DNA of 64,000 bases from Halorhabdus tiamatea SARL4B (GTDB taxonomy: Archaea > Halobacteriota > Halobacteria > Halobacteriales > Haloarculaceae), in the NCBI RefSeq assembly GCF_000470655.1, contig NC_021913.1:124001-188000 (forward strand), written 5' to 3'. The notes under the pieces were generated by a model. The model saw only the letters and a program-made list of their open reading frames with translations, did not search any database and was not told the origin of the DNA. The position numbers were made by a program, and so were the translations under genes. Shown here in pieces: positions 18,528 through 54,322 of the stretch (position 1 is the first letter of the stretch; every line of letters begins with the position of its first letter).

Positions 18528-18578
18528 TTTGACTTGTGTCGGACTAGGCAAGAGGTGTCCATTTTTGTGGCCCGGGAA

Positions 18579-27041: not shown

Positions 27042-27837
27042 AGGTTACCTGTCGGTTGCTCCGGAGCGGGCCGATCCAGTCGTTGCCGTAGGATTCGATG
27101 TGTTCGACGAGGGTAGAATCGTGAGCGAACCACGAGTCGAAGAGGTAGGTGTCCGCCGGGACACCTACCTCGTCTTCGAGTTCGGTGACGATCTCACGGG
27201 CGAGATCGTACTTAGTGTCGTGATTTTGGTCGTTTTCGTCCTGTTTTTCGTAGAGGCGGAAGGTGAGTGGGTAGGCGGTTTTGTCGTCAGCGTAGAAGGC
27301 GTAGATGATGTCTTGGCCCCAGACAGTGTCACCTTCAGCGTGATCGTAGAAGTGGCCGACGCCGGGGACTTCGTCCCCGGCTTTCTCGGTGATCGTGTCG
27401 TCGAGGATGATGTAGCCATTTTTTGACCAGCGTGTTTCACCGTGTTTTTGGAGTTCTTCGAGGCGTTCGTGGTTGAATTGCTGTTCGTCCCAGTTGTACT
27501 CGGTGAGGAACTTGTTGAGAGCGCGTTTGTCTCCAGCTGGAAGGACTTCGCGTGCGATGCCTGCCACGGTCTTGTTGCTGGCTGCAACAAGACCTGTGGC
27601 GTAGGTTTTCGCGTGCTGACGTTGTGCGGGTGACAGCGACTCGAACTCGTCGAATACACGCGTGCACGACAAGAAGTCCGTAATCGGCATCATCCGTGTT
27701 CGCTACTGCCTACGTCACGATCCTACTTCAACGTTCAAAGCTGAGTTCACAGTTAACACCGGCTGAACTTGGGGTCGTTCGGGCACACGCCGAGCTTCGG
27801 CAGTGCTACCAACAACCTGCTTCCCAAGAGTGAAATC

Positions 27838-27848
27838 CAAAATTAAAT
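27838..27848 (+). promoter_or_regulatory. TATA box for GyrA-CTD-like gene
   Basis: ccaaaattaaa lies 24-34 bp upstream of the ATG at 27872, which supports that start as leaderless. A second in-frame ATG at 27890 remains possible. Confidence 0.5.
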
Positions 27849-27871
27849 CCTGCTACCGCAATGAGGGGTTA

Positions 27872-29446
27872 ATGACTCCCCTCCTGACCATGGTCAATCA
27901 AGAGAACGATATTGACGACGTTTTGAATGAGTTGATCCCTGAGACAGAACCCGGATCAGACTCCTCTACTGAGACGACAGCGTTTACTGGTACGGATTTG
28001 GAAACAGCCAAGCAGTCAGATGCAGCTCCTGAACCAGCGGACAACACAGAGGGGTTCACCATCGAGTATATGCGATTTGAAGCCCCAACGTACCATCTCA
28101 CCTATGAGGGTGTTGAGAAAACATTCTGCGGCCGCGACCTGAGCGACATTGAGTACAAGAGTACGACAAACGAACCAGAATTACTCGATCCGTGCGATCT
28201 CTGCCTGCAAATCAAAAACCAACTCTCTGAAGAAGAGCAGATCGAAAAGATCCGTGAAGAACTGAGTGCCCAGATTCCTGCGGTGTCTGAACCGACAGAG
28301 CACCCCCTGCAATTTGAGCGAGACGAGGTAGCGGGACTGATGAAGGCCATACCTACGACGCTCGAGACGGAGACGGGCGACCTAGCTGATCTGCGCGCTC
28401 AACTGAAACTAGCTATTGAGGGGGTTGGTGAGGCCGAAGGCGATCCAGGACAGTTCACTAATGCCGAAATGAGGGCCTTCGAGGCGGCGCTCGACGGGGA
28501 TGGTCTGATCTCCTCGCAAAATAACGTATACATCTATACACGGTCGGGACTATGCAAGCGAACTGAGCTGAGCGAATTCTCTCGACAACGACGGGGTGGA
28601 AAAGGAGTGATCTGTTGTGAAGTGGATGCTGAGGACGCAGTCGAGAAGGTGCAGTTGACTGATCCACGCAAGCAACTATTGGTTCTGACAAACCACGGCC
28701 TCATTCACCAAGTGAAAGCAAACCAGATCGCCCCAAAAGAGCGAACTGAGCCCGGTGAGCAGATCCACGAATTCCTGGATTTCGATCCCGATGAAAGGAT
28801 CCAAGCAATCCTCCCGATCGAGACAATCTCAGAGGGGCTGTTTCTCACACTAGCGACGTCTGACGGTCACGTCAAACGGACGGCGACAACGGAATTCAGC
28901 AATATCCACCGCGGTGGAATTCAGGCTGTTGAATTGGAGGGCGATGATCGGATCTGTGATGTAACTCTGACGAATGGATCGATGGATATCCTCCTTGGCA
29001 CAAACCAGGGACGAGTCATCAGATTCGATGAAACGGAAGCGCGAGAAATGGGGCGACCGGCACGTGGCGTTCATGGCATCGAGTTAGCGGCTGATGACCA
29101 TGTCGTAGGACTGACCACGGTAGAGCCAGGACACGATGAAGAGATTCTGACAGTAACGGCAAATGGCTACGGCAAGCGAACAGCCGTCGATGAGTACAGG
29201 ACCCAGAGTCGGTATGGCTCCGGCTTGCTCGACATAGTGACTGATGATCGGAATGGTCCTGTCGTCGATATCACCCGCGTGCAGCCTACTCACGATATCG
29301 TGCTTGCTAGTGGGGACGGACAGCTCATACGCATCGGCGCGGACGATATCTCACGTCTCGGTCGGAATACGCAAGGTGTTCAGGTGATGGATCTTGATGA
29401 TGGCGATCGTGTGTCAGGAGTTGCGACCTGCGGGGGTACGGAGTAG
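27872..29446 (+). CDS. free-standing GyrA C-terminal beta-pinwheel protein with N-terminal Cys domain
   Basis: 524 aa. From about residue 200 to the end the protein is a GyrA C-terminal domain: it has the GyrA box QRRGGKG (about residue 239), and blade-like repeats follow (LVLTNHGLIHQVKANQI, LATSDGHVKRTATTEF, LLGTNQGRVIRFDETEA, VTANGYGKRTAVDEY, LASGDGQLIRIGADDI). In gyrase this pinwheel wraps DNA. Here no topoisomerase breakage-reunion domain is present. The N-terminal 190 residues are acidic, then carry a CGRD...CDLC cysteine set (about residues 85-111) that could bind zinc. It is not a broken gyrA, because the upstream part is a different intact domain. It sits beside a defence-like operon, is convergent with the HNH-repeat gene (9 bp apart), and may bind or wrap DNA for that system. 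Confidence 0.75.
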   Translation: MTPLLTMVNQENDIDDVLNELIPETEPGSDSSTETTAFTGTDLETAKQSDAAPEPADNTEGFTIEYMRFEAPTYHLTYEGVEKTFCGRDLSDIEYKSTTNEPELLDPCDLCLQIKNQLSEEEQIEKIREELSAQIPAVSEPTEHPLQFERDEVAGLMKAIPTTLETETGDLADLRAQLKLAIEGVGEAEGDPGQFTNAEMRAFEAALDGDGLISSQNNVYIYTRSGLCKRTELSEFSRQRRGGKGVICCEVDAEDAVEKVQLTDPRKQLLVLTNHGLIHQVKANQIAPKERTEPGEQIHEFLDFDPDERIQAILPIETISEGLFLTLATSDGHVKRTATTEFSNIHRGGIQAVELEGDDRICDVTLTNGSMDILLGTNQGRVIRFDETEAREMGRPARGVHGIELAADDHVVGLTTVEPGHDEEILTVTANGYGKRTAVDEYRTQSRYGSGLLDIVTDDRNGPVVDITRVQPTHDIVLASGDGQLIRIGADDISRLGRNTQGVQVMDLDDGDRVSGVATCGGTE

Positions 29447-29455
29447 CGGCGTGAG

Positions 29456-31525
29456 TTAGACGTCGAATTCCGAAAGCAGCTCGTCAATCTCGTCCTGTAG
29501 CTCATCGGACGTCTCTGCAGTGTCCCCGGAGACGCGCTGGCTATCGGACGCTTGATCCGACTCTGTTGTTGTCGCTGACGTGTCGTCTGCGGATTGGGAG
29601 GACTGATCACCCTGGTCATGGCTAGCATCATTGGGCCGGCTCTGACCGTCGGGTTCCTCGTCACCCAGTTCGATCTGTTCACCCAGCTGTCGGACAGCTA
29701 GATCTTTCGTACTGCTGAGCCGTTTCATTGCCTCTCCTGAATCAGTGGTCCACAGTTTTAGGCGGGCCTCCTCGAGTTCGTACCAGTGGCCCGGATCCCA
29801 ATCGACTTCCACGTCGTGAACTTCCCAGATCTGGAGGGCTACCTTTGTATCAGCCACGTCTTGGACTTGTAATTCCGCTTGTTTCCGCGGTCCAGGGGAC
29901 TCGTCACTTGCGATAACTTTGACAAGGATTGGTTCCTCCAGACGCCCCTCTGTCGATACGTCGGCTATCGTGGTCGACACGGTTGGCTGGGGTGTCGAGC
30001 TCTGTTGAGGGGTGGCATCGTTTGACTCCAACCTCGAAGCTGGTGTTGTGTCAAGTACATCGTCTAGTGCCGTCGCAAACGACTCAAAATACTTCGCAAC
30101 AGTTGAGCTGCTAATCTGGGCCCGCGCATCAAATGCGGCCCGTGACGGTCGCTCGCCAACCTTGTCGGCAACGCGCTGGATTTCATCGATAAGCTGTTCT
30201 TTCCGGTCAATCCCGGCCGCCTCAAGTGCGTTCTCCCAGGAACCGAACTCGGCTCTAATCTCTTGCACAGAAAAAGATCCCTCTTGGCGGAATGTGGCGG
30301 CCTTGAACACACCCTCTACCTTGTCGTTCAGCGCTTGCAGTTCTTCGATCATCGCCACCCGTGACAACTGATCTTCATCCGAGTCGGTTTCCAACTCGAT
30401 GTCGCTTAGACACTGTTCTTTCGCTGCCGACCAACTGCCGAAGTAGCTTACGTACGGCGACGGACTACACCGTCCGTGCGAGTGCATCTCTGATTGTGTG
30501 GGTGGGTGGCCCAGTTTTGAGGCGACGCGTTGGAGTTCAGTCGATAGAATCGCTCCCTTATCGATATCCGCCGCTGACAACGCCTCATCCCACGAACCGA
30601 AGGTATCGATGATTTCGCTTGCCGAGTAGGCACCATCAGTATTCATGTCCTGAGCGCGGACGTACAACTGACTCTCTTCTTGCAACCGGGTGAGCTCGTC
30701 AATGTAATTCTTCTTGGTGGTTTCTACTGACCCGCCAGTTGTCTCGTCCGCGTCTGACTTGTCGTCTGTGGACTGATCTTGTGAGGGAGTTGAATCGGGC
30801 TCCGACGTGTCTGTGATCCCTGCCGCTCTTAGTGCATCATCCCAGGATTCAAAATACGTTGTGTGAACCCCTGAAGAATACCGCCCATGGTGTTCCATAT
30901 CCGTCGTCGTCGGTTGGTCTTTGGCCTCTTCAGCGACACGTTGAATATCACGGATCAGCGCTGCTTCTTTATCGATCCCAGCCGCAAGCAGTGCCTCATT
31001 CCACCCACCAAACTCATCATAATACTGGTGAGGCCCATATGAGCCACGCTCGCGCATTTCCGGTGTTAGTGGAACACGCTCTATTTCATTTGTCAATCGA
31101 TATAACTCATACAGGAGTTCGGCGCGAGTGGGCGACTCTGTATTTGTCGCACTTTCAGACTCATTTTCTCTGGCAGTCTCGAATGTGTCTGCAATACTTG
31201 TAATCTGCTGGTTGACAGCGGTATACCGCTCAGATAGTTCTGACGGAAGGTCCGCAGGATCGTCAGTAGCCATCTTCAAATTAAGTCGGGCTTTTTCTAA
31301 GGCTTCGTTTGCAGCAGTCGTCGATTGATTCTCGATTGCATCCTGGGCTGTCTGAAGTGCTGATTCAGCCGCACTCAAGTGGTGGACAGTTTTTGAAACC
31401 GTTCGACTGCCCTGCGAGTCAGTACGACCGTGCTCTCTGACTCCCCGCGTGTGGTCTTCCATCGATTTTTCCTCTTTAGGAGTAGTGACCCCGCTGCGGA
31501 GTTTATCGATCCAATTGTCAGACAT
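29456..31525 (-). CDS. protein with six HNH-associated repeats and a C-terminal OB-like domain
   Basis: 689 aa. Residues 1-120 are charged and helical. Six copies of a roughly 50-residue repeat follow, each ending in a version of FGSWDEALxAAGI, the homing-endonuclease-associated repeat fold, a small helical DNA-binding unit. They alternate in type: copies 2, 4 and 6 carry (L)QRVA, copies 1, 3 and 5 do not, so the array is three dyads. After a Ser/Thr/Gln-rich linker, ILVKVIASDESPG to HDVEVDWDPGHWYELEEARL looks like an OB fold. A long Ser/Asp/Gln tail ends the protein. No nuclease motif is present. It is divergent from the helicase gene with a 227-bp shared promoter region, suggesting a DNA-binding role in the same system. 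Confidence 0.7.
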   Translation of the reverse strand: MSDNWIDKLRSGVTTPKEEKSMEDHTRGVREHGRTDSQGSRTVSKTVHHLSAAESALQTAQDAIENQSTTAANEALEKARLNLKMATDDPADLPSELSERYTAVNQQITSIADTFETARENESESATNTESPTRAELLYELYRLTNEIERVPLTPEMRERGSYGPHQYYDEFGGWNEALLAAGIDKEAALIRDIQRVAEEAKDQPTTTDMEHHGRYSSGVHTTYFESWDDALRAAGITDTSEPDSTPSQDQSTDDKSDADETTGGSVETTKKNYIDELTRLQEESQLYVRAQDMNTDGAYSASEIIDTFGSWDEALSAADIDKGAILSTELQRVASKLGHPPTQSEMHSHGRCSPSPYVSYFGSWSAAKEQCLSDIELETDSDEDQLSRVAMIEELQALNDKVEGVFKAATFRQEGSFSVQEIRAEFGSWENALEAAGIDRKEQLIDEIQRVADKVGERPSRAAFDARAQISSSTVAKYFESFATALDDVLDTTPASRLESNDATPQQSSTPQPTVSTTIADVSTEGRLEEPILVKVIASDESPGPRKQAELQVQDVADTKVALQIWEVHDVEVDWDPGHWYELEEARLKLWTTDSGEAMKRLSSTKDLAVRQLGEQIELGDEEPDGQSRPNDASHDQGDQSSQSADDTSATTTESDQASDSQRVSGDTAETSDELQDEIDELLSEFDV

Positions 31526-31752
31526 CTACACTGAGTATACTAAGTTTGGCAGCACGCCAGTGTAATATGTTTTTATTCGATGCTGACATGACTGGGGATG
31601 GCCATTGCTGTCTTGTGTCTTTGAGGACCATTCACCGTATCTTATGGTCGGAGGGTAGGGCTTCCACGTCGCGTGTCGATGGCAGAGGAGGCGAATCATC
31701 TACGGGTAACACCTTAGTGTGCGGTCGTTCAAGCTATCATAACGGATATGCA

Positions 31753-33186
31753 ATGAGTGCAACCTTGCAGAAGCCGGATTGGGTCGAAGCGAGGGCATAC
31801 CAGCGACGGGCCATCGCCAGCTGGCTAGACAACGGTGGACATGGAATTCTCCAGATGGCGACAGGAACTGGAAAAACGGTTACAGCATTGCAGGCTGCGA
31901 CAGAATTGGCACAAAGGCTGGACAACCGTCTGGCGCTGTTTATTGCAGTACCCTATCAACATCTTGTTGATCAATGGGCAGAGGATCTCGATGATTTTGG
32001 AACTCAACCGGTCTTAGCGTACCAATCGCGGAAACAGTGGCAAGAGCAACTGGAGCGCGAGCTAGTCGAGTTCAACATGGGGTCACGTTCCTCCGTCGTC
32101 GTTATCACCACGCACGATACGTTTGCCATGGAGCCGTTCCAGGCAGCGATAGATCGGGTTTCGGGTGTCGAGCGGATGCTCATCGCTGATGAGGTACACC
32201 ACCTCGGCGCGCCACACCGCCGGGACGCACTGCCGGAATCGATCAAATTGCGGCTGGGTCTCTCGGCGACACCGAAACGGTGGTATGACGATGAGGGCAC
32301 GGCTGACCTCTTTGACTACTTTGGCGGTGTCGTCTTCGAATACGGCCTTGAACAGGCGATCGAGAACGACGATCTGGCCGAGTACTACTACGTTCCCCAC
32401 GTTGTCGAACTCACGCCGGACGAAACAAAGCAGTATATGGCACTGTCTCGGGCGATTGGAAAACTCATCTCGAAAGTCGAGGGCGACTTGAGCGACGCAG
32501 ACCTCCAGGGCCACCAAGAACTGAAGCAATTGCTATTCAAACGCGCCCGGCTGATCGGGACCGCGGCAAACAAACTCGAACGCTTGGAATCGCTCTTGAG
32601 TCAGACAGAACAGGTGAAACATACACTGGTTTACTGTGGGGACGGCTCTGTTGATGACTCAGTCAGTGGTGAAACGAAGCGGCACGTCGATGCGACTGTC
32701 ACCCGTCTCCGTGACAATCTCGATATAAACGCGCACCGGTTCACCGCCCGTGAAAACCAGGCAACGAGAGAGGAACTCCTCACTGAATTTGAGCGTGGCG
32801 ATCTCGACGCCCTCGTTGCTATTAGGTGTCTTGACGAAGGGATCGACGTCCCCGCCACGCAAACGGCCTACATTCTTGCGAGTTCCTCAAACCCGCGCCA
32901 ATTCGTGCAACGCCGGGGACGGATCCTTCGCACACATCCTGGCAAAGAGTATGCTGTTATTCACGATTTTATCACGATCCCCCAAACGGAGATCGATCCC
33001 ACACTGCTTGATGATGATCAGTTCAATGCTGAGCGGAATTTGCTTCGCAAGGAGCTCGAGCGAGTCGCGACGTTCGCTGGCGCGGCACGAAACCATCCGG
33101 ATGCCGATATTCAGGGGATTCCATCCAGTAGCGGTCCGTTTTCGCTACAAGAACTAAAGCGTCAATACAATCTATTACAAATGTGA
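31753..33186 (+). CDS. SF2 DEAD/DEAH helicase of phosphorothioation-restriction type
   Basis: 477 aa from the ATG at 31753; the frame is open upstream, but homology starts at VEARAYQRRAIASWLDNGG. The helicase motifs are complete: MATGTGKT (residues 34-41), VPYQHLVDQW, DEVHH near 145, LSATPKR near 171, and QFVQRRGRILR near 385. The layout (short N-terminus straight into Walker A, YQHLVDQW, DEVHHLGA) agrees with my memory of the family annotated as DNA phosphorothioation system restriction enzyme. It is the first gene of the operon continued at 34845. An IS66 element entered 7 bp after its stop codon. Confidence 0.8.
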   Translation: MSATLQKPDWVEARAYQRRAIASWLDNGGHGILQMATGTGKTVTALQAATELAQRLDNRLALFIAVPYQHLVDQWAEDLDDFGTQPVLAYQSRKQWQEQLERELVEFNMGSRSSVVVITTHDTFAMEPFQAAIDRVSGVERMLIADEVHHLGAPHRRDALPESIKLRLGLSATPKRWYDDEGTADLFDYFGGVVFEYGLEQAIENDDLAEYYYVPHVVELTPDETKQYMALSRAIGKLISKVEGDLSDADLQGHQELKQLLFKRARLIGTAANKLERLESLLSQTEQVKHTLVYCGDGSVDDSVSGETKRHVDATVTRLRDNLDINAHRFTARENQATREELLTEFERGDLDALVAIRCLDEGIDVPATQTAYILASSSNPRQFVQRRGRILRTHPGKEYAVIHDFITIPQTEIDPTLLDDDQFNAERNLLRKELERVATFAGAARNHPDADIQGIPSSSGPFSLQELKRQYNLLQM

Positions 33187-33209: not shown

Positions 33210-34655
33210 TTACCCCGAGGTCTCGACAGCCGGCACAGCGTGAGCCCGTGAGATCATTTCATTGTTGCTGACGACTCGACGAAGCTCTTCGTATGGATTG
33301 CGTCCCTGCTGGCGCCACGTCGCCAGCAGGGACAAGACCGTCTCGTGAACGAACATTCCTCGTTCATTACGGAGCGTTCCGATGATTTTCCGGAGAACTA
33401 CTGGCTCCCGAAGCGCGTTCTCTGCGGCATTGTTTGTCGGAGAGACCGCTGGCTCACCGACGAAGGTGAGCCAGTGGTCGAGACCTCCTTCGATCTTCCC
33501 GAGCAGTGTTGCCACTGGTCCGTCGGGTACTGACCGGTCAATCAGCGATTCAAGCTCTCTTCGCGCCACACGCTGGAGGTTTGCTCTCTCACGAGGACTT
33601 GGGTCGCTCTCCAGCCGGGCCTGGAGAGCGACGTATACCTGTCTGAGAGCCTGGTAGATCGGTTCACCTTCCGCCTGCTTTTCCGCGGCGTCTTCAGCCT
33701 CTCGAAGAATGTGCGCCCAGCACCGCTGGAGGTTGCTGCTGAAAGCTGGGTACGCCGTCCACCCGTCACAGACCACCGTTCCCGCGAAGTCCTCGCCGAG
33801 GACTTCCGCGGGAACATCACTTCCACGACTCTCCCTGACCGCGTACAACGTATGTTGGACGGTCTGAAACGTCCAAATCCATGCCTGTTCACCGTCGCGT
33901 TTGATGCCTGTCTCGTCGATGTGAACCACGTCAGCATCCAGAATCTCTTGACGGATCTGCTCGTACTCACAGCGACCGGCGCGTGCAGCGCGCTCGGTCG
34001 CGTGCCACGCGGATGCACCCGAGAGTTCGAGTCCGTGTAGTTGCTCGAAGCGATCAGCGATCTTCCGGTAAGGAAGGCGGTGATCGTACCGTGACAGAGC
34101 TGATTGAGCGATGACGTTCACCCCGAACTGCCCCTCATCGGGGCAGTCGGGGTGAGCCGCAACTGTCTCTGTTCCACAGGAATCGCACTGGTAGTAGTGG
34201 CGGTTGTACCGGGTGATCTCTGGGGGCTGCGGATCAGGGATCTCCTCGACGAGTCGGGGGCTGACGCCCACCGACTCGTCGAAGTGGTCGCCACACTCGG
34301 GACAACGGTCACAGGTGACTTCGATTTCTTCGTCGGGATCAGCTGTAGAACGCCACTCCGGATCGTGACCGTCTTTCCGACCGGGAGTGCCACCGTCAGT
34401 TCGGAGATCGTCGTCTTCGTCATCTTGCGAGGTCGGGGACTCGTCGGTCCCCGACCGTCGCTTGCTGGGTGGAGTGTGCGGATTCTCGTATTTGCGAAGA
34501 CGTGTTTCGAGTTCTTCGATCCGCTCGTCTTTCTCTTGTAACTTCTCTCGAAGCTGTGCGTTCTCTTGTTCAACCTCTTCGACTCGTTGTTCAAGTTGTA
34601 AAAACCGGGAGAACAACTCCTCTTTGGTGAGATTATCTCTGTTCAAAGATCCCAC
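33210..34655 (-). CDS. IS66-family transposase, copy 1
   Basis: 481 aa from a GTG at 34655. A leucine-zipper-like coiled coil (residues 8-60) is followed by a proline/acid linker with NPHTPPSKRRSG. A zinc finger of the CPECGDHF...YYQCDSCGTE type comes next, then the DDE core: VVHIDETGIKRDGEQAWIW, VVCDGWTAYPAFSSNLQRCW with the catalytic Asp and the HILRE helix, and VSPTNNAAENALREPVV with the Glu. The protein is nearly identical to copy 2, with a slightly longer coiled coil. Its coding sequence is rich in hairpins, such as 33778-33815. Confidence 0.92.
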   Translation of the reverse strand: MGSLNRDNLTKEELFSRFLQLEQRVEEVEQENAQLREKLQEKDERIEELETRLRKYENPHTPPSKRRSGTDESPTSQDDEDDDLRTDGGTPGRKDGHDPEWRSTADPDEEIEVTCDRCPECGDHFDESVGVSPRLVEEIPDPQPPEITRYNRHYYQCDSCGTETVAAHPDCPDEGQFGVNVIAQSALSRYDHRLPYRKIADRFEQLHGLELSGASAWHATERAARAGRCEYEQIRQEILDADVVHIDETGIKRDGEQAWIWTFQTVQHTLYAVRESRGSDVPAEVLGEDFAGTVVCDGWTAYPAFSSNLQRCWAHILREAEDAAEKQAEGEPIYQALRQVYVALQARLESDPSPRERANLQRVARRELESLIDRSVPDGPVATLLGKIEGGLDHWLTFVGEPAVSPTNNAAENALREPVVLRKIIGTLRNERGMFVHETVLSLLATWRQQGRNPYEELRRVVSNNEMISRAHAVPAVETSG

Positions 34656-34844: not shown

Positions 34845-34991
34845 ATGGACGACTCGGTTAATGTTGATGATGAGACTCTAGAGGTGGTGCGGGAACGCGT
34901 TTTGGAGGCAGAAAAAGACCAGCTCCATCTACGAAAGGCACAAGGGATCATTCCCGACATTAAGCAGATTATTGAAGAAGAAGTCCAGTAA
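34845..34991 (+). CDS. 48-aa DNA-modification-system-associated small protein
   Basis: MDDSVNVDDETLEVVRERVL opens a 48-aa acidic, helical protein ending DIKQIIEEEVQ. It is too short for most gene callers. The TAA stop shares its last A with the ATG of the DndD-like gene (34989-34993), so translation is coupled. I recall similar 45-50-aa proteins annotated as DNA modification system-associated small protein in haloarchaea, always next to such ATPases. Before the IS66 insertion it lay about 45 bp after the helicase stop. Confidence 0.75.
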   Translation: MDDSVNVDDETLEVVRERVLEAEKDQLHLRKAQGIIPDIKQIIEEEVQ

Positions 34992-37033
34992 TGAAACTCA
35001 AGACACTCACTTTCGAGAACTTTCGACAGTTCCGTGAGGGACAAATTGAGTTCTCGACCGAAGCCGACAACAACGTAACGGCCATCCACGGCCAAAACGG
35101 TGCTGGGAAATCGACAATACTCAATGCTTTTACCTGGGCTTTGTATGACGAAGTCAACTTCGACACTGGTCATGACCATCTAGTGAACCAAGGGGCGATG
35201 GCTGAAGCTGAGACGGGTGAAACAATCCGTGTCGCGGTCACGCTCGAGTTCGAACACGATGGCCAGGACTACGAAGCGATCCGGTGGGCACAGTACCAGA
35301 AGGAGAACAGTGCGGACCTTCGGGGCAGCCGTATGGATTCGGGGGTAGATGTGACCTGCTGGGACAGCTCTGGGGTACGATCGACGCCAAGTAACCCTGA
35401 AAACCGGCTTCGCCAGATCCTCCCTGAGCGACTCAGCAATCTCTTCTTTTTCGATGGTGAGGATATCGATGAGCTCGCTGGGATCGACAATCAGGAACAA
35501 ATCAAAGAGTCGATCCAGAATATCATGGGCCTCACAATCTTGGAGCGGTCAATCCGCCATCTGGAGGATGTCGAAAGCCGCTTCGAGTCGGAAATGCAGG
35601 AATACGGCAGCGACGAGCTATCCGATTTAATCGATCGGAAACAGGAGCTCAAACAAAAAACCGAGGACAAAGAGCAAAAGCAGTCTGACACGCAGCAGAT
35701 CATCAAAAAGCTCGACGGCGAGATTCGAACCATCGAACAAAAATTATCCAAGTTAGAGGAGACGGCAGCGCTACAAGAGCAGCGTCAGGAATACGAATCC
35801 AAGAAGGAAGATCGAGAAGCAGAAATCGAAGAGATCAATGACAAAATTCGGTCGAAGATCTCTGACTCTGGATTTCTAACCTTCGCAATGCCTGCGATTC
35901 AAGATACAGCGCAGGACATCGATGAGCTCAGAGAGAAAGGGCTCATCCCGTCAGAACTCAGCAACCGGTTCGTCGACGACCTGCTTGATCGGGGCGAGTG
36001 TATCTGCGGGAGGCCGTTGCAACCGAATACTGACCCATACAGTGCCGTCGATTCCTGGAAATCGGAGATGAGTAATGAAGGAGTCGATCAGGCGGCTCTG
36101 CGGCTTATCGCGCATCTTGACCAGATTTCGGAGCAGCGGTCGACGTTCTTCGAGGAGATCGAATCTCTCGTCGATAAGCGAAAGGAAGTCCAGAAGGACG
36201 TCGACCAACTCACAGAGAAAATTGACGAAATCGGTCGCGAACTGGAGGAGATGGACGCACCAACCGGTCGGGACCAAGAAACGCCCCAAGAACTTGAACA
36301 AGCTCGTAAAGAGAAAGAACAAGAGCAGCAGGCGGCGCGTCACGAGGCGGCGAAATTGGAACAGCAAATCGAGGATATTCAGGAGAAAAAAGAAGAAGTC
36401 GAGAGCGAGATCGACGAGGCACGGGAGAAACAGAGTCAGGCCCAGACTGCGCGCCGGCGATGGAAGGCAGCGCAGCTCATCCGGAAGGAACTCGAAGCGT
36501 CATTCGAACAATTACAAGATAAGGTTCGCGAATGGGCCGATCAGTTGATTGACGAGACTTTCACTTCGATCGCGGCACACAAAGACCTCGAAGCTGAAAT
36601 TACCGACGAATTCCACCTCAAAATCTGGAAGGAAGTGGGGAATCAGACGATCGAACTTGAGAAATCAACCGGTGAGCGCCAGATCGCCAGTCTCGCCTTT
36701 ATCGGCAGTCTCGTCAGCATCGCAAAGCAGCGCTATGAATCCGACACCGATTCACCCTATTTCACTGGTGGTATCTACCCGATTGTGATGGACTCCCCGT
36801 TCGGAGCACTCGACAAAGATCACCGTCGCCATGTCGGGCAAATCATCCCGGAGTTGGGAGAGCAAGTTATTGTACTCGTGACCGACTCACAGTGGGACGG
36901 GCCAGTTGCTGAAGAGATGGAACGGATTGCAGGTGCACAGTACCAGCTGGACTTTAATCCTGGCGATGGGACCAAGACGTATCCCGAAACCGAGATCGTT
37001 AACGAGCAAGCTGCCACAGCTACAGGAGAGTGA
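34991..37033 (+). CDS. DndD-like SMC/RecN-type ATPase
   Basis: 680 aa. The Walker A is HGQNGAGKST (residues 33-42). LPERLSNLFFFDGEDIDEL near residue 150 is the phrase typical of DndD. Long coiled coils flank a CICGRPL cysteine turn near residue 337 that could act as a zinc hook. A C-terminal signature (KSTGERQIASLAFIGSLVSI) and Walker B (YPIVMDSPFGALDKDHR) near residue 600 complete the ATPase. DndD works with DndC and DndE in placing phosphorothioate in DNA, and related ATPases occur in the matching restriction modules. No dndA, dndC or dndE is in the window, so a role on the sensing or restriction side is more likely here. The gene sits inside the operon running to mcrC. Confidence 0.8.
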   Translation: MKLKTLTFENFRQFREGQIEFSTEADNNVTAIHGQNGAGKSTILNAFTWALYDEVNFDTGHDHLVNQGAMAEAETGETIRVAVTLEFEHDGQDYEAIRWAQYQKENSADLRGSRMDSGVDVTCWDSSGVRSTPSNPENRLRQILPERLSNLFFFDGEDIDELAGIDNQEQIKESIQNIMGLTILERSIRHLEDVESRFESEMQEYGSDELSDLIDRKQELKQKTEDKEQKQSDTQQIIKKLDGEIRTIEQKLSKLEETAALQEQRQEYESKKEDREAEIEEINDKIRSKISDSGFLTFAMPAIQDTAQDIDELREKGLIPSELSNRFVDDLLDRGECICGRPLQPNTDPYSAVDSWKSEMSNEGVDQAALRLIAHLDQISEQRSTFFEEIESLVDKRKEVQKDVDQLTEKIDEIGRELEEMDAPTGRDQETPQELEQARKEKEQEQQAARHEAAKLEQQIEDIQEKKEEVESEIDEAREKQSQAQTARRRWKAAQLIRKELEASFEQLQDKVREWADQLIDETFTSIAAHKDLEAEITDEFHLKIWKEVGNQTIELEKSTGERQIASLAFIGSLVSIAKQRYESDTDSPYFTGGIYPIVMDSPFGALDKDHRRHVGQIIPELGEQVIVLVTDSQWDGPVAEEMERIAGAQYQLDFNPGDGTKTYPETEIVNEQAATATGE

Positions 37034-37035
37034 GT

Positions 37036-37515
37036 ATGACGAACGCTACCGAAGTCAGAGAGACCTACGAGAAGAAACCAGTCTACGAACAGCTTGTCGA
37101 CGAGCACGATGTCTTTGGCTCGTATGTGGACTTTTTCATGTTCGCAGCGAGTCTGGGATTTGCGCGCGATGAGAAAGAGACCGACTATGGCGGCGATAAC
37201 GAAATGCTTTGGATGCATCTTGGCAATAAAGATCTGTACCGGGCAACGGCCGCAGCTATCGCCTATCAAGACACCGATGATCCGGAGGCGTTGGTCGATC
37301 CCAGCCGGCAACTGGAGATCTTAGCGCAGTACGCAGCTGGTGGGGCCGAAATTGCACAGGAGGAGTTCGGCGACATCAAAGGGGATCCGACTGACACTGT
37401 CCTCAACTTCATTCAGTCGAACCATGATCCGAATACCCAGGAGGAACAGGACTCGGTCCTACAAGAAATCATTAGCAGTTTTGACGAGGAGATGTTGGAT
37501 GCAGAATCCTCGTGA
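37036..37515 (+). CDS. dnd-system-associated protein 4-like
   Basis: 159 aa from the ATG at 37036 (a GTG at 37030 is possible). The pattern FGSYVDFFMFAASLGFARDE, then AAAIAYQDTDDPEALVD, then LEILAQYAAGGAEIAQEEFG agrees with what I remember of the dnd system-associated protein 4 family, which accompanies phosphorothioate modification genes and has no known activity. It is helical and acidic. It starts 2 bp after the DndD-like stop and leads into mcrB 84 bp later. The family call is from pattern memory. Confidence 0.6.
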   Translation: MTNATEVRETYEKKPVYEQLVDEHDVFGSYVDFFMFAASLGFARDEKETDYGGDNEMLWMHLGNKDLYRATAAAIAYQDTDDPEALVDPSRQLEILAQYAAGGAEIAQEEFGDIKGDPTDTVLNFIQSNHDPNTQEEQDSVLQEIISSFDEEMLDAESS

Positions 37516-37599: not shown

Positions 37600-40377
37600 A
37601 TGTCTCTTGCAGAAACTCTCCGACAAATTCTTTCGGCGTATCCAACCCCGAGTGAACTCGGTGCTGACGAACAAGCCCGAAGTGTCTCGAACTTCCCGGA
37701 ACTGCAGAAATTAATCAGCGAGACGGTTCCTGCTGCGATTCAATCGGCACTCGCTGATCAAGTCGATGGTGAGTTCGAGATCGCTGGCAACTACGGCCAG
37801 GGAACACTCGCACATATCCCGTCTATCGCAATATTTCAGCCCGACGAGACAGACACGACAAAGCGTGGCATCTTTGTGGTGTATCTTTTCGATCCTGTCT
37901 CCGAAACCCTGTACCTTACGTTGAACCAGGGGGCGACCGAAGTGGATCAGATTTCTGGCCAAGGCTTTGACCCTGCACCAAACGATATTCTTGATCGGCA
38001 TGCGCAACTGTATCGCGATCACCTACCGACTGACCGACGGTTTACAGCTGAGGCAGCGACCCTTTCTACGGAGTTGCGTCGCAGCGAGCCATACAACCAT
38101 GGGACGATTTGTTATGCCCGATACGATTTAGACGATCTTACTGACACCAAGCAAGTGGTGACTGATCTCACATGGATTGTCAGCGCATACGAGACGCTTC
38201 TGGACCGTCTCTATAACTGGCCCAATCTCGAACTCGATACCCGTGATGTCGTGTTACTTACGCCACCAAGCGAAGAAGCGTGGTTCGGGTGGCGGACGCA
38301 TGGCGTAGCAACGTTAGAGCCACCAGAGGACGAAACACAGGGAAGTCTGACACAGGAGCAGATTCACACGTTTGAAAAGGTGATCTCTTCGGGTGACGTC
38401 TTGCTCGCTGTGCGGCCAGGCGAGCCGGCGCCAATTCTTTGCGGCATCGGGACAGTGACTGTCGGTCATGGGGGAACCCTCCAATCCGAAGTTCGAGAGC
38501 AGGTCGACGAGCGCTTTGGGCTCACAGAAGACCGGTTCATTCGCTGTCACTGGGCATCCTTGGGTGAGCCCGGGGTACCAATCACAGTCGTCGGGGACGA
38601 ATCACTGCAGCCAACAGCACCACTCCGTCAGCTCTCCCAGTCACTCGGACAGCGGACCCTGGGCGCTGCAGCTCGTCGAATGGCTGTCCTCAAGGGTGAT
38701 GTCACCCCGGAAGATGTCTTAGCAGAATTCCTCGAGACACTTGATCTCCCAACGCCGTCCAAGTACTCGCCCGGGGACGAGCTTGATGATCCGTCAGTGT
38801 CTCCGTCGGCGCCATACTATTGGGTGGACCAGACGGAACAAAGCGAGCCGGATCCGACAGCCATTCTCCAAGCGCCGCGCGATGAGTCACCGGCCCACGA
38901 TTTGATGAAGCTCTCGACAGGTGATACACTCATCCATTATGAGGATGGGGCTATTGTCGGCTATTCGACGGTTGAGGGGGCCGCATACTACCATCGTGAT
39001 GCCCAAGAGCGGGAGTATCGGCGTGTCGAGACCGCATATCAGGCATTCGAACGCCCAATCGATCTCGCCGAGATCTTCAGAACACTGCGTCACCGAGCAC
39101 CATCTGAGAGTGACCTGTACCCAGTGCAACCGAACGGGGTGCCCCACGATGGATATCTCTACAACCTACCCGAAAACGTGGGTACGTTTATTCTCGACCG
39201 TGGCCGTGCTGCGGAAGGTGGGGTCAAACGCCTGCAGAATCGATTGCAGACCCCGTCGATAGAGATTGATCTCAACGCACTCCCACTGTACTTTCCTGGC
39301 GGGGAAGAAGCCCGATTAGAACGGCAAATCGAAGCGGCATTATCCTCAGGCCAGCACCTCATCTTCACTGGCCCCCCAGGAACCGGCAAAAGCCGGCTCG
39401 CTCGGGCTGTCTGCGAAGCCGCACAGGAGCAGGCGACTGAAGAGTGGATGGATGGCTATACCTTCACAACAGCTACTGCTGAGTGGACCACGTTTGATAC
39501 GATTGGTGGATATGTTCCCGATCCCGAGAGCGAGAGCGAACAACTCGTGTTCGACCCGCGACTCTTTTTAGATTGCTTTCGAGCCGAAGATGGAACGCTA
39601 CGGAATCGGTGGCTAATCATTGACGAACTCAATCGGGCTGATATCGACAAGGCGTTTGGACAGCTCTTCTCAGTCCTGGCAGAGGATTCCGTTACGCTCC
39701 CGTACAAACAAAACCGAGAGACTAGCAAGGATCTCAGGATCGAATGGGTCGACGAGACAACTCCCGAGAGTGAACTGGAGGCAATCGCAGTCAATCAGGA
39801 CCGGTATCCTGTCACACCCGCGTGGCGGCTGATCGGGACGATGAACACGTTCGACAAAACCTCGCTGTATGAACTTTCCTTTGCCTTTATGCGGCGGTTT
39901 AGCTTCATCCATATGGGCGTCCCGGAGATATTTATAGACCAAGAAGAGAGAATTGTCGGTGGTGACCTACTCAACCCGGCAATGGGGCCCAATTACGCAA
40001 CTGTCTGGACGGGCGACGACGATGCGCTTTGGGCCGTGCTGAGCGATCATTACGCGGAGCTGGAACTTATCTGGGCTATCGTCAACAAACAGCGATCGAT
40101 CGGCCCAGCCATCATTCGCGATATTGCTGAACATGTCGCTGCCTTCGAGGGGGGCGATCGGTCGGCAGCGCTGACATCGGCTCTGGTTAACCTCGTGTTC
40201 CCACAGCTAGAAGGGCTGCGATTGCCAGATTACCAAGAGTTTCGAGATGATCTTGAAACCGGCGGCTACGTCCAGTTAGAATCCGAAGACTCGCGGGAGC
40301 CAATTGATCTTGCTGTCGATGTCGACTACCTCTGGCGGACTGCCGTCGACATGTTCCAGCTCCAGCCTGACCGGTGA
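37600..40377 (+). CDS. mcrB: McrB-like AAA+ GTPase with MrcB_N and EVE-like domains
   Basis: 925 aa. Residues 10-200 match the MrcB N-terminal (DUF3578) type (EIAGNYGQGTLAHIPSIAIF, then RGIFVVYLFDPVSETLYLTL). Around residues 435-500, STGDTLIHYEDGAIVGYSTV and VETAYQAFERPIDLAEIF resemble an EVE/YTH-like domain, a fold that reads modified bases. The AAA+ core has GPPGTGKSR near residue 590, LIIDELNRADIDKAFGQLFS, and the McrB signature MNTFDKTSLYELSFAFMRRF. In McrBC systems this subunit recognises modified DNA and translocates using GTP. It is followed after 7 bp by mcrC. The sensed modification cannot be told from sequence; the DndD-like neighbours suggest phosphorothioate. Confidence 0.85.
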   Translation: MSLAETLRQILSAYPTPSELGADEQARSVSNFPELQKLISETVPAAIQSALADQVDGEFEIAGNYGQGTLAHIPSIAIFQPDETDTTKRGIFVVYLFDPVSETLYLTLNQGATEVDQISGQGFDPAPNDILDRHAQLYRDHLPTDRRFTAEAATLSTELRRSEPYNHGTICYARYDLDDLTDTKQVVTDLTWIVSAYETLLDRLYNWPNLELDTRDVVLLTPPSEEAWFGWRTHGVATLEPPEDETQGSLTQEQIHTFEKVISSGDVLLAVRPGEPAPILCGIGTVTVGHGGTLQSEVREQVDERFGLTEDRFIRCHWASLGEPGVPITVVGDESLQPTAPLRQLSQSLGQRTLGAAARRMAVLKGDVTPEDVLAEFLETLDLPTPSKYSPGDELDDPSVSPSAPYYWVDQTEQSEPDPTAILQAPRDESPAHDLMKLSTGDTLIHYEDGAIVGYSTVEGAAYYHRDAQEREYRRVETAYQAFERPIDLAEIFRTLRHRAPSESDLYPVQPNGVPHDGYLYNLPENVGTFILDRGRAAEGGVKRLQNRLQTPSIEIDLNALPLYFPGGEEARLERQIEAALSSGQHLIFTGPPGTGKSRLARAVCEAAQEQATEEWMDGYTFTTATAEWTTFDTIGGYVPDPESESEQLVFDPRLFLDCFRAEDGTLRNRWLIIDELNRADIDKAFGQLFSVLAEDSVTLPYKQNRETSKDLRIEWVDETTPESELEAIAVNQDRYPVTPAWRLIGTMNTFDKTSLYELSFAFMRRFSFIHMGVPEIFIDQEERIVGGDLLNPAMGPNYATVWTGDDDALWAVLSDHYAELELIWAIVNKQRSIGPAIIRDIAEHVAAFEGGDRSAALTSALVNLVFPQLEGLRLPDYQEFRDDLETGGYVQLESEDSREPIDLAVDVDYLWRTAVDMFQLQPDR

Positions 40378-40384
40378 TTAAAGC

Positions 40385-41713
40385 ATGTCGAAGACCGCAC
40401 CGGATAAGCTCACATCGCTTGTGGCTGAGGAACTCATCACCTATCTCGGTAGTGGAGAACTCAATCGGTATCGGCTAGCCAAGTCAATTGACTATGGCGA
40501 CCTGAATATCGCCGACCTCAACCAACTCAAAACGCTCCATTTTGTGTTGTCAGATGCTGTCTACAAGTTCGTTCAGAAACTTCCTGAACGACTCCGCCGT
40601 CTCAAAACAGTAAACAAAAGAGAGCAAACGGTAACGCGAAGCGAGGTTCGTGGCCGAGTCGATTGGTCCAAAACGCGACAGCGCCGGTATCGGACAGGAT
40701 ACAATAATCGGACTCTGTTCGTGGTTGATATCCCTGAGGTAGAATACGACATACCTGAGAATCGGGTGTTAAAGAAGTTCCTCGCATCCATTGCAGAGCC
40801 ACTGCGAGAAGATGTCCTTTCACTTGATCAGTCGTGGGCCAGTCACTGGCCCCAGAATCGGATTCTGCGACTTCAGCGTCACCTTCAACAGAACGTGTAT
40901 CTCAAGCGCCTCCCTGATCCAGCCGATATATCGTTATCACGCCGAGATTTGACTGCCGCACGACAGTCGCGACAGACACTGTATTCAGAGGCCGAACGGC
41001 TCTTGCAACTCCACCAAGACTTCCTTGATGATCGAGATCGGCCGGAAGTGCGTGAACTGTTGGAGTCAACTCTTGTAGTTCCAACCAGCGACGCGCGGCT
41101 CTTCGAGTTGTTTTGCGTCTTCGCGATGATACGCCGGCTGCAAGCACGGTTTTCCGGGCTTACGATCCAGCGAATTCAACCTGGCATGGAGGAGCTAGCC
41201 AAACTCGGGAGCAACGAGCAGGAAATTGCAATCTACTACGATCAGGGTGGTCCACTCAGTTTCTTCGAAGAGTACCCACAATCTGAGACGCTTATGCGCG
41301 AGTATGACGTGCCTGAGGCACTCCACCGTCAGGTAACAGCGGTCGAAACACAAGCTGATCAGTTGCAGCACTTCCTGGGACGATCGTCGCAGGAAAGCTT
41401 CTACGGAGGGCGTCCCGACTTCCTCATTCTTCGAACGCCATCGAGCCAGGCGAGTGACTCTCCAGCAGAGGTCGTAATTGGTGAGATTAAGTACACACGG
41501 TCTAGACGAACATTCGCAACTGGACTTCGAGAGTTACTCGAGTACTTGTTTTTCGCTCGGAATGGTGATCACTACCTCCTCGATCGGCACGGCGAGAGTA
41601 CCCTCAACGTGTCGGGGGTATTGTGTACTGACGGCGTGGACACCAATGCAGACCAAACGGATCTAGTGCGCCACCTCTCTACAGACACTCTCTTAGAGGC
41701 GTTTGAAACTTAG
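40385..41713 (+). CDS. mcrC: McrC-like PD-(D/E)XK endonuclease subunit
   Basis: 442 aa. The N-terminal part carries the McrC phrase DIPEVEYDIPENRVLKKFLA, where the subunit touches the AAA+ ring. The C-terminal part holds the nuclease: GGRPDFLILRTPSSQ near residue 340 supplies the Asp, and VVIGEIKYTRSRR near 360 supplies ExK. All catalytic residues are present. It starts 7 bp after mcrB and ends the operon. A second IS66 copy is inserted 95 bp after its stop codon. Confidence 0.85.
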   Translation: MSKTAPDKLTSLVAEELITYLGSGELNRYRLAKSIDYGDLNIADLNQLKTLHFVLSDAVYKFVQKLPERLRRLKTVNKREQTVTRSEVRGRVDWSKTRQRRYRTGYNNRTLFVVDIPEVEYDIPENRVLKKFLASIAEPLREDVLSLDQSWASHWPQNRILRLQRHLQQNVYLKRLPDPADISLSRRDLTAARQSRQTLYSEAERLLQLHQDFLDDRDRPEVRELLESTLVVPTSDARLFELFCVFAMIRRLQARFSGLTIQRIQPGMEELAKLGSNEQEIAIYYDQGGPLSFFEEYPQSETLMREYDVPEALHRQVTAVETQADQLQHFLGRSSQESFYGGRPDFLILRTPSSQASDSPAEVVIGEIKYTRSRRTFATGLRELLEYLFFARNGDHYLLDRHGESTLNVSGVLCTDGVDTNADQTDLVRHLSTDTLLEAFET

Positions 41714-43881: not shown

Positions 43882-44826
43882 TCAGCGAAAATCTTCGAAC
43901 GTCCGCTGGCTTTCGAAGGGGGAGAAATTCGTGACGATGATGTCCGTCTTTCCGATGTTAGTTCGCTTCGTAGAATCGCTGTTGATCATCCGTTTTCCCC
44001 TAGCCGTTGTCTTACGGAACGACTCCGGGAGGACGTCTTCTGAATACAGCTTCTCAACGTAGTTTTCCTTCTCTATTTCGTTTTCTTTATCATTCGCATT
44101 CGTGATCATGACGTACGCCCCCCGTTCGTCGAGTTCAAATGCTAACTGTTGGAGTTCCTTGTGCCGTTCGTAGTCAAATCCGCCGGGGTGATATTTTTCG
44201 AAACTCCCTGTCTTTCGGACTGACGGGTACGGTGGGTCGAAAAACACGAGATCGCCTTCTTCGACGTGGTCCCGTACGAATGTAAAATCCTTTTTAGTTA
44301 TTTCTGTGTTCTGTAGAATCCGGTGTGCCTCTCTAATCCGCCGTTCAAGCACCGATACTTCTGTCCACTTTGATCCGACAGGCACATTGAAATCGCCTTC
44401 TTGATTCGTCCGATAGAGACCATTGAAACAGGTCCGATTAAGAAACAACAAGAGGCTGGCTTCACGAAGAGGGTCCTTACACTTGTCTGGCCCTTCACGC
44501 AATCCGTTAAAGATGTCGCGTTTGTCGTAGTAGAAATCACTCCCATCGCCCTCACCCTCGCGTCGCTGTTTGTATTTTGCATCAAACTCCTTATTCTGAG
44601 AGATAATTTGCTCAGGATTACGCTTTATTTGGCGGTAGAAGTTTATCAGACGGGGATTGATGTCGTTAATAAACCCATTGGTGGGCTGAAGAGCGAAAAA
44701 GACCGCACCCGCTCCGAAGAAGGGCTCAAAATATCTGTTAAATTGAGAGTTTGATGGGAGGCGACTTAGAATTTCATCTAGCATCGACCGCTTTCCGCCA
44801 GCCCATTTTAGAATCGGTTCGGCCAT
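43882..44826 (-). CDS. dam: Dam-family DNA adenine methyltransferase
   Basis: 314 aa from the ATG at 44826, where the family N-terminus AEPILKWAGGKRSMLDEIL begins; a TTG at 44886 would extend it to overlap the preceding gene. FEPFFGAGAVFFAL (residues 33-46) is the SAM-binding motif and FFDPPYPSVRKTG near residue 195 the catalytic motif, in the alpha-class order. It transfers a methyl group to N6 of adenine; the target site cannot be read from sequence. It lies 52 bp after a MORC-like ATPase gene, and the pair resembles restriction-modification-type operons of that ATPase. Confidence 0.92.
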   Translation of the reverse strand: MAEPILKWAGGKRSMLDEILSRLPSNSQFNRYFEPFFGAGAVFFALQPTNGFINDINPRLINFYRQIKRNPEQIISQNKEFDAKYKQRREGEGDGSDFYYDKRDIFNGLREGPDKCKDPLREASLLLFLNRTCFNGLYRTNQEGDFNVPVGSKWTEVSVLERRIREAHRILQNTEITKKDFTFVRDHVEEGDLVFFDPPYPSVRKTGSFEKYHPGGFDYERHKELQQLAFELDERGAYVMITNANDKENEIEKENYVEKLYSEDVLPESFRKTTARGKRMINSDSTKRTNIGKTDIIVTNFSPFESQRTFEDFR

Positions 44827-44878
44827 ATACTGTTCTTTCGTGGGCTGCCAATAATATGCTTGGAAATCCCGTGGGGAT

Positions 44879-46738
44879 TCACTCAAGTGATGATTCTATG
44901 AGGTGTCGGATTTCTTCCCAAACGAGATCGTCGCCAGCGGTGTGTGGTAAGTTGAGGTTCCCACACAATTGTGATCTTGGTAGATCGAGAATCTTTGCAC
45001 CTCGTTCCTCCTCTTCCTCTTCGTCATTGAATACCAAGAATAACTCGGCAGTCTCCGATTGACTTTGATCCTCAGACACCGTCTGTGATGATTCTGCAAT
45101 CGGCTGCTCAGTCATCCCATCGATTTCCACTTCGTGATCGCCGTTCTTGATATCGGCCGGTGTGCTCGGTAGGTGCTCGGGGAGCTCCTCGACTACCGAC
45201 AGCTTTTGTCCTCCATGGTTTTTGAAATACTTTTGATATCGAGGCTTTTGCCAGGCTTCAAGATCATCTGAATGTCGAAAGGCGTTTTCCATGTGGATCC
45301 GCGCAAGCTCATTGATGCGTCCTGCCACCTTGTGCGCATCTTTTTCGAGGCATTTTGGCGGAGCTTCTTCAATGGCAACCAATTGGTCGAGCCCTCTGTC
45401 GCTCTCTTGTGCCAATTGCGTTCGATACGCCGGGCGTTTCCCTTTTGGCAGGACTTCATCACAACGAATTCGCAAGGTCGCATGAGCCTCGGCTGTTTGC
45501 CGGAGAGCACGTATTTCTGTGAGATCAGTATCTGGTCGGTGAGAAGAGACGATTCGTTGGCGATCTCTATAATCTTGAGTCTTCACATCTCCCCCGTTCG
45601 CCGCTACGGCTGAATCAGCATCATATGGCTCAACAAAGGCGCGTGGAACTTTATCGGCGTCCAGCTCGTAATAAGCCTGAGCAACCCGTCTTAGCCAATT
45701 GTAGACGCCCTTTGTTTCATCTGTCCCCCGCATGATCGGGTTATGTTTATCTATTGATGACTTTTGAGTGTCCCAAGGGAGCTTTTGCCCATCTGCTTCG
45801 GTCTCAAGTTCCACAATAATACGTAACCGGTCATGTCGGGCATTGAATTTCCCAATTCGTTCTTGGCCGTCACCGAAGCCGCCTTGCGCATCACGAGCGC
45901 TCGAAACGACTTTCCGTTTTTGGATATAGATATCGGTTCCTGCAGAGTGTGTGTCTTTCTTGTGCAGTAATCCTACCGTAATGTGGAGTCGGACAGGCGC
46001 TTCAAGATGGTCAAAATCCAATTGGATATCTTTGTAGCGACGCGGGAAGAGACCATCAAACTGTGAAAATGCCCACTCTGGTACGCCATCCGGCGTGACC
46101 GGCTCCCCATCTACCAAAATTGTTAGATCAAAGTCCTCATTGCGCAATTCCTGCATTTCATCGCTCAGGAAGAGATTATACGCTTGTCCTAAACGCGTAC
46201 GTAGTCCAGCCGCTGTCTCTTCACTCCATTCATAATTCAAATCTTCGATACAAATTTCTGTCACACCCGGCTCAATTTCTGCATCGGTATGGAGTGATAC
46301 TGACCAATCATGATCGTCTTCGAACCAGCTTTCATCGATTCGATATCGCCAGCCGTTTTCATCGCTGGGGTGGTGTGATCGGATTGTGAACGGCACACCG
46401 AGATTAACTAAGCTCTTCTTCGCACCGACACCAAATGTCCCGATTGAACCCCCATTTTGTTTGGCGGTTTGGCCGAGACCGAATAACATCGCTGCTTCAT
46501 CACGTGGAACACCACCCGTATCGTCGCGAATCATGAGTTGTGTCCGTGCCTCTTCTTGATCAACAGAGATTTCAATTTTAGCTTCATCAGAGCGATCAGA
46601 CGCTCGCTTCCACGCGTCCAGCGCATTGTCGCATAGTTCGAGTATCGCAGATTCAAGAGTTACGTCTGATTTCAGCGCAGTGAGGGCCTCCTTAGTTGGA
46701 AGCAATTGTGCGCGCTCCTTTCCACGCATTTGAGACAT
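44879..46738 (-). CDS. MORC-like GHKL ATPase
   Basis: 619 aa with a Bergerat-fold ATPase at the N-terminus. Residues 33-42 are the N box (LELCDNALDAW), DDTGGVP at 72-78 is the G1 box, and GSIGTFGVGAKKS at 97-109 is the lid/G2 motif. An S5-like second domain follows, where DIYIQKRKV supplies a candidate catalytic Lys. The C-terminal 250 residues are charged and not recognised, ending in an acidic low-complexity stretch and a short PRSQLCGNLNLPHT motif. MORC-like and MutL-like GHKL ATPases were described in prokaryotic restriction-modification gene neighbourhoods. The adjacent Dam methylase fits that picture. Confidence 0.8.
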   Translation of the reverse strand: MSQMRGKERAQLLPTKEALTALKSDVTLESAILELCDNALDAWKRASDRSDEAKIEISVDQEEARTQLMIRDDTGGVPRDEAAMLFGLGQTAKQNGGSIGTFGVGAKKSLVNLGVPFTIRSHHPSDENGWRYRIDESWFEDDHDWSVSLHTDAEIEPGVTEICIEDLNYEWSEETAAGLRTRLGQAYNLFLSDEMQELRNEDFDLTILVDGEPVTPDGVPEWAFSQFDGLFPRRYKDIQLDFDHLEAPVRLHITVGLLHKKDTHSAGTDIYIQKRKVVSSARDAQGGFGDGQERIGKFNARHDRLRIIVELETEADGQKLPWDTQKSSIDKHNPIMRGTDETKGVYNWLRRVAQAYYELDADKVPRAFVEPYDADSAVAANGGDVKTQDYRDRQRIVSSHRPDTDLTEIRALRQTAEAHATLRIRCDEVLPKGKRPAYRTQLAQESDRGLDQLVAIEEAPPKCLEKDAHKVAGRINELARIHMENAFRHSDDLEAWQKPRYQKYFKNHGGQKLSVVEELPEHLPSTPADIKNGDHEVEIDGMTEQPIAESSQTVSEDQSQSETAELFLVFNDEEEEEERGAKILDLPRSQLCGNLNLPHTAGDDLVWEEIRHLIESSLE

Positions 46739-54217: not shown

Positions 54218-54322
54218 CCTAGTAATAGTGGGGGTATCGCGGAATGCAATAAAACCCAACGTAACTACTGTCACAAAGAGCCGTACTGTTATGTCGGAGA
54301 GTCTCGAAAGGCCATTAACAAT

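Follow-up and report, generated by a model that had tools for sequence, protein, structure and literature searches.

The window analysed here, a 64-kb stretch of the Halorhabdus tiamatea SARL4B genome, contains a gene for a free-standing gyrase A C-terminal domain (CTD) beside the operon of a Pbe-type defence system. Our preferred reading, to which we give a probability of roughly 0.55, is that a GyrA CTD became detached from a gyrA on a single occasion in Halobacteria and was then recruited by methylation-linked Pbe systems, which it serves as an accessory subunit that binds DNA. This reading is carried by the observed fold, the preservation of the GyrA box and of the arginines that contact DNA, the lack of a gyrase catalytic part, a single origin, linkage to Pbe loci in five of five cases, and coupling to a second gene, p200, at three loci. 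Work on the wrapping domain of gyrase normally treats it as one component of a supercoiling machine.

Domain architecture and relation to gyrase

The gene lies in an open frame at 27803-29446 (+), starting at 27872 (ATG, with GAGGGG 5' of it) or at 27890 (ATG) and ending at 29446. Its product begins with an acidic, probably disordered tail (27890..28060, +, or from 27872 with the earlier start; pLDDT <50; alignment A1), followed by an N-terminal domain (28061..28504, +; alignment A2) in which a zinc-type motif, YH..FCG..LL..C..C, precedes a helical stretch, and by a six-bladed GyrA C-terminal beta-pinwheel with the box QRRGGKG (28505..29446, +), assigned through PF03989 and through PDB sequence and fold matches. 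The cytidine-deaminase-like domain that three relatives carry at the N-terminus is missing. The N-domain matched no Pfam family; it is kept in four relatives, and its H/C/C/C set is invariant in alignment A2, in agreement with the acidic, Cys-bearing and separate N-terminus noted in the preliminary description. The helical half of this domain (A2 columns 60-147) resembles short stand-alone haloarchaeal proteins of unknown function, which make up most of the A2 matches found in 79 of 391 genomes. About 70 weak A2 matches, mostly to the helical half only and in short proteins from unrelated contexts, were set aside as candidate family members, and a search of viral contigs gave no N-domain relatives.

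The relation of the pinwheel to gyrase was examined at the level of sequence, residue and fold. PF03989 matches five stretches of the protein (E 4e-56), and residues 203-511 align with GyrA-CTD crystal chains at E values down to 2.5e-61 in a PDB sequence search. An AlphaFold2 model, confident in the pinwheel alone (pLDDT about 85-97 for residues 211-510) and poor in the N-domain, was matched by Foldseek to solved GyrA CTDs, the best being Borrelia 1suu (TM 0.95, target-normalised; 1.7 A), with the ParC CTD on the MukB hinge (4mn4) also among the fold matches. The GyrA box is intact and fits Q(R/K)RGG(R/K)G, and the equivalents of the DNA-contact blade arginines R612, R712, R716, R766 and R817 are kept, while R667 corresponds to His here and to Leu in most haloarchaeal GyrA examined; the box and the contact arginines are retained as in the host's own GyrA. 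NCBIfam GyrA models were matched just from about position 466 to 797, far below cut-off, and because the match begins only there, the gyrase catalytic part with its active-site Tyr is absent. The box, the blade repeats and the missing catalytic part had all been proposed from the sequence, and they stand; the comparison with solved GyrA CTDs, where a failed fold match would have counted against the proposal, succeeded.

The protein thus shares with the GyrA of DNA gyrase a six-blade beta-pinwheel, the GyrA box and the DNA-contact arginines, but it lacks the winged-helix, tower and catalytic parts and has a zinc-type/helical N-domain of its own. Its gene is separate and adjoins a defence operon on a 330-kb contig, whereas an ordinary full-length gyrA, 38% identical, is found on the 2.8-Mb contig. 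A naturally free GyrA CTD is also known from Borrelia burgdorferi as Gac, whose structure, 1suu, is the closest fold; Gac wraps DNA by 180-220 degrees and acts as a transcriptional repressor (PMC10127594). Gac is produced from an internal start within gyrA (PMC10127594), whereas the haloarchaeal CTD has a gene to itself, which encodes additional domains and lies in a defence setting.

Derivation from GyrA and retention of the wrapping residues raise the question of whether the free CTD modulates gyrase, competing with GyrA for DNA or joining the enzyme, so that altered supercoiling stalls viral replication or transcription. The published PbeABCD system blocks viral DNA replication without cleavage (PMC6459918), which would fit such an effect. 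We nevertheless regard this explanation as improbable, since the protein contains no portion of the interfaces for GyrA dimerisation or for GyrB, as judged by the range of the GyrA model match, and an N-domain of its own together with coupling to a Pbe/methyltransferase operon would be superfluous for a pure gyrase competitor.

Distribution and origin of the free-standing family

As a control for linkage, the CTD alone was used as query against 391 Halobacteria genomes and matches were counted per genome. At least one protein, their gyrA, was matched in 389 of the 391, and a second GyrA-CTD occurred in exactly five: the window genome, G152, G197, G241 and G355. All five second copies belong to the free-standing family (the four relatives being at L013, L014, L015 and L061), and the N-domain as query independently retrieved four further proteins that share the architecture of the window protein. 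Every one of the five lies at a Pbe locus with a PbeA/PbeC/PbeD operon, 631-2301 bp from the nearest pbe gene, and a DNA methyltransferase was found at each. With relatives of the window PbeC (E<=1e-30) in 49 of 391 genomes, the chance of five of five falling in Pbe-bearing genomes is 2.6e-5, a value that considers presence alone, ignores distance and serves as a guide rather than a formal test because the genomes are related. These sequence-level observations suggest that a free CTD became a DNA-gripping part of an antiviral Pbe cluster. The preliminary description had envisaged a wrapping domain recruited into a defence setting, with random scatter of the family as the result that would speak against it; the neighbourhood comparison gave the Pbe operon and a DNA methyltransferase as conserved partners, a linkage kept through exchange between Pbe lineages.

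Beyond these genomes, plasmid and phage protein records gave GyrA/ParC-type matches only, the haloarchaeal ones inspected being full-length gyrA, and a scan of genome contigs returned ordinary GyrA only. An Acidithiobacillus protein annotated as a 'C-terminal beta-propeller' (L012) was rejected as a candidate, as its gene immediately precedes gyrB and appears to be a disrupted gyrA. The CTD is missing at most haloarchaeal Pbe loci (35 others read and the Pbe loci among L062-L070), and therefore it is not essential to the Pbe core.

In the phylogenetic analysis, the five free-standing CTDs formed one clade apart from haloarchaeal and bacterial GyrA, supported at 100/100 when set against the bacterial rows and at 99/96 in the tree as drawn. 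Their five PbeC partners are spread over three or more PbeC lineages and the supported branches force four label changes, in what is a quick tree with long branches, L061 sitting on one of them. Since one CTD clade is set against at least three PbeC lineages, the CTD appears to have moved among Pbe systems while being unseen outside them, and a function within Pbe systems is the best explanation because the CTD swaps partners there and is not found elsewhere. The surroundings of the window gene are IS-rich, as would suit a gyrA fragment carried along in an island without defence function. This bystander explanation is highly improbable, as none of the six blades nor the GyrA box is damaged, at 39-45% identity between family members, and as one clade recurs with several Pbe lineages, its five genomes coming from four genera in two families.

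The Pbe operon and its partner genes

The Pbe core of the window comprises a PbeA-type helicase in a short form without the HKD nuclease part (31747..33186, +; PADLOC PbeA; TIGR04095 E 6e-174, just below cut-off), PbeC, a DndD/SMC-like ABC ATPase with the CxC hook ECICG (34991..37033, +; PADLOC PbeC E 8e-259), and a small PbeD/DndE-like protein (37030..37515, +; TIGR04062 E 5.5e-14, below its cut-off); with PbeA and PbeC strongly matched and PbeD below cut-off, the PbeA/PbeC/PbeD core is present. A transposase-like gene recognised from its ORF translation (33210..34655, -), with a near copy at 41963-43387, lies between pbeA and pbeC. No PbeB small protein was seen there, nor was one evident in most relatives from the same PbeC lineage. 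The window PbeA, at about 479 aa, is helicase only; proteins of similar length occur in L107-L119 and the long form in L013-L015, and by this sequence comparison the short PbeA is the normal form as in relatives, not an IS-truncated one.

Downstream follow an McrB-like protein with MrcB_N and AAA domains (37600..40377, +; PF12102, PF07728), an McrC-like protein (40385..41713, +) assigned by a weak PF10117/McrC match and synteny with L123, a D12-class adenine-N6 DNA methyltransferase (43882..44886, -; PF02086 E 1e-52) and, beside it, a GHKL-type HATPase protein (44879..46738, -; PF13589) with a 54% identical partner in L119. Because methyltransferase, GHKL ATPase, PbeA, PbeC and PbeD are grouped in L119, and the order PbeA-PbeC-PbeD-McrB-McrC of the window is found in L123, the Pbe, Mcr, methyltransferase and GHKL genes are plausibly one system. 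The D12 methyltransferase is likely the modification partner of the Pbe genes, its relative in L119 (55% identity) being contiguous with them. TIGR03183 detected no DndC (phosphorothioation) in any of the five CTD-bearing genomes; hence this is not the phosphorothioation-coupled form studied by Xiong et al. (PMC6459918), and it resembles the methylase-linked forms mentioned in that paper and in Wang et al. 2024 (PMC10853773).

The CTD gene converges on a gene for an HNH_repeat protein with six homing-endonuclease-associated repeats (29456..31525, -; PF18780 E 1.5e-83). The 9-bp contact previously offered as support for co-location is exact, but it says little about the CTD because HNH_repeat genes adjoin many Pbe loci without one (L107, L111, L112, L116, L118, L119, L124, L129, L131, L132, L140, L141). 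These genes next to haloarchaeal Pbe operons, some with helicase-like partners, are independent of the GyrA-CTD; an OB-fold considered for the C-terminus of the window protein was dropped, as no PDB relative was found. Elsewhere in the window, an AAA/SMC-like ATPase gene and a divergent AIPR protein gene (51920-55813) are possibly a further defence pair, and a PD-(D/E)XK nuclease protein and a UvrD helicase-nuclease stand in tandem (18534-24048, AddAB-like) near a ParA-like gene.

The architecture of the relatives bears on the role of the CTD. In L013-L015 the protein (647-671 aa) carries a cytidine-deaminase-like domain, the zinc/helical domain and the CTD, in that order. The first of these aligns with Bacillus cytidine deaminase (profile A4, E 2e-11) and keeps three zinc ligands, and as its catalytic Glu position is Ile/Leu (HA[IL]E vs [CH]AE) it is probably inactive as a deaminase. 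The fusion gene lies at or near the operon end, overlaps the upstream p200 by a conserved 8 bp (ATGAmTGA) and shares its operon with a DNA methyltransferase. At L061 the protein is of the short form, like that of the window, and its gene adjoins a methyltransferase and an MTaX1 gene; this gene and the pbe operon are divergently oriented, and in both L061 and the window the CTD is a separate transcription unit. The divergent arrangement, together with repression of transcription by the free CTD of Borrelia (PMC10127594), would suit a nucleoid or regulatory protein resembling Gac, which would bind the pbe promoters, control them and keep a costly defence operon quiet. We hold this to be unlikely in view of L013-L015, where a terminal or near-terminal operon position, translational coupling to p200 and fusion to the deaminase-like domain argue for the CTD as a structural partner.

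At about nine further Pbe loci and in a plasmid record (L062-L067, L069, L070 and L023, the last being the plasmid record), the same operon encodes the deaminase-like protein alone, with no CTD. A three-gene module of DNA methyltransferase, p200 (a 200-aa protein that matches no Pfam family) and a cytidine-deaminase-like protein, which has zinc ligands but lacks the catalytic Glu at its usual place, is mostly Pbe-attached (module genes at L013 9561-12141, L014 7984-10594, L015 2072-4616 and L023 11992-13054) and occurs without Pbe in L024 (8437-11071) and L068 (9106-11755). No p200 relatives were found in a search of viral contigs. Genome G241 (L015 on contig C44; also G241:C64) holds a full p200 and two partial pieces, which may derive from a second, disrupted system of this kind. 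Near-identical operons of Pbe, methyltransferase, p200 and deaminase-like genes in different genera (L023, which is NZ_MN918441.1, and L062-L066), one of them plasmid-borne, suggest recent horizontal spread. A role in modification, with the CTD reading or installing a mark and presenting DNA to the methyltransferase instead of the restriction part, would draw on the Pbe-free modules and on the methyltransferase that adjoins the CTD in L061 and shares its operon in L013-L015. It appears rather unlikely, since the window methyltransferase lies about 14 kb from the CTD gene and is of another class (D12), and since the CTD itself is found only where Pbe genes occur.

Proposed mechanism and significance

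For an accessory DNA-binding subunit, the pinwheel would wrap a stretch of invading or unmodified DNA, and the zinc/helical N-domain, with the deaminase-like domain in relatives, may dock the CTD on the Pbe complex; docking is a guess because the N-domain model is of low confidence. Once docked, the CTD could keep DNA in place or bent while PbeC loads and PbeA translocates or, alternatively, could present sites to the methyltransferase or a self-check. The hinge of MukB, an SMC ATPase, binds the ParC CTD (PMC3950513), which by analogy offers a precedent for CTD docking on PbeC: in both cases (4mn4 for MukB-topoisomerase IV) a topoisomerase pinwheel would sit on an SMC-like ATPase, but ParC stays in an active topoisomerase, whereas the CTD-PbeC contact is a proposal. 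A bolder and doubtful version has a methylation-linked Pbe complex reading DNA topology, the PbeC-docked pinwheel telling invading DNA (differently supercoiled or replicating circular) from host DNA, or trapping it wrapped and so stopping replication.

The window system shares the PbeA helicase, CxC PbeC ATPase and PbeD/DndE-like protein with the described PbeABCD and CxC ABC-ATPase-DndE systems, of which methylase-linked forms and MTaX1 have been reported (PMC6459918, PMC10853773), and differs in the gyrase domain beside it and in the absence of DndC from the five CTD-bearing genomes. Neither of these Pbe/Dnd papers mentions gyrase, and PMC10853773 (Wang 2024) also describes no propeller or deaminase; a gyrase domain in Pbe systems was likewise not found in the other literature searched, from which subscription papers were largely out of reach. 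The Pbe system type is thus known, and the GyrA-CTD component is new to it within the literature searched. If the preferred reading holds, the free CTD would be the first component of a restriction-like defence system in that literature to derive from a topoisomerase. The way in which Pbe systems, which stop replication without DNA cutting and often without phosphorothioation, engage their target would thereby become testable, and further components that await study come into view: p200, the deaminase-like domain without catalytic Glu, and the DNA methyltransferase.
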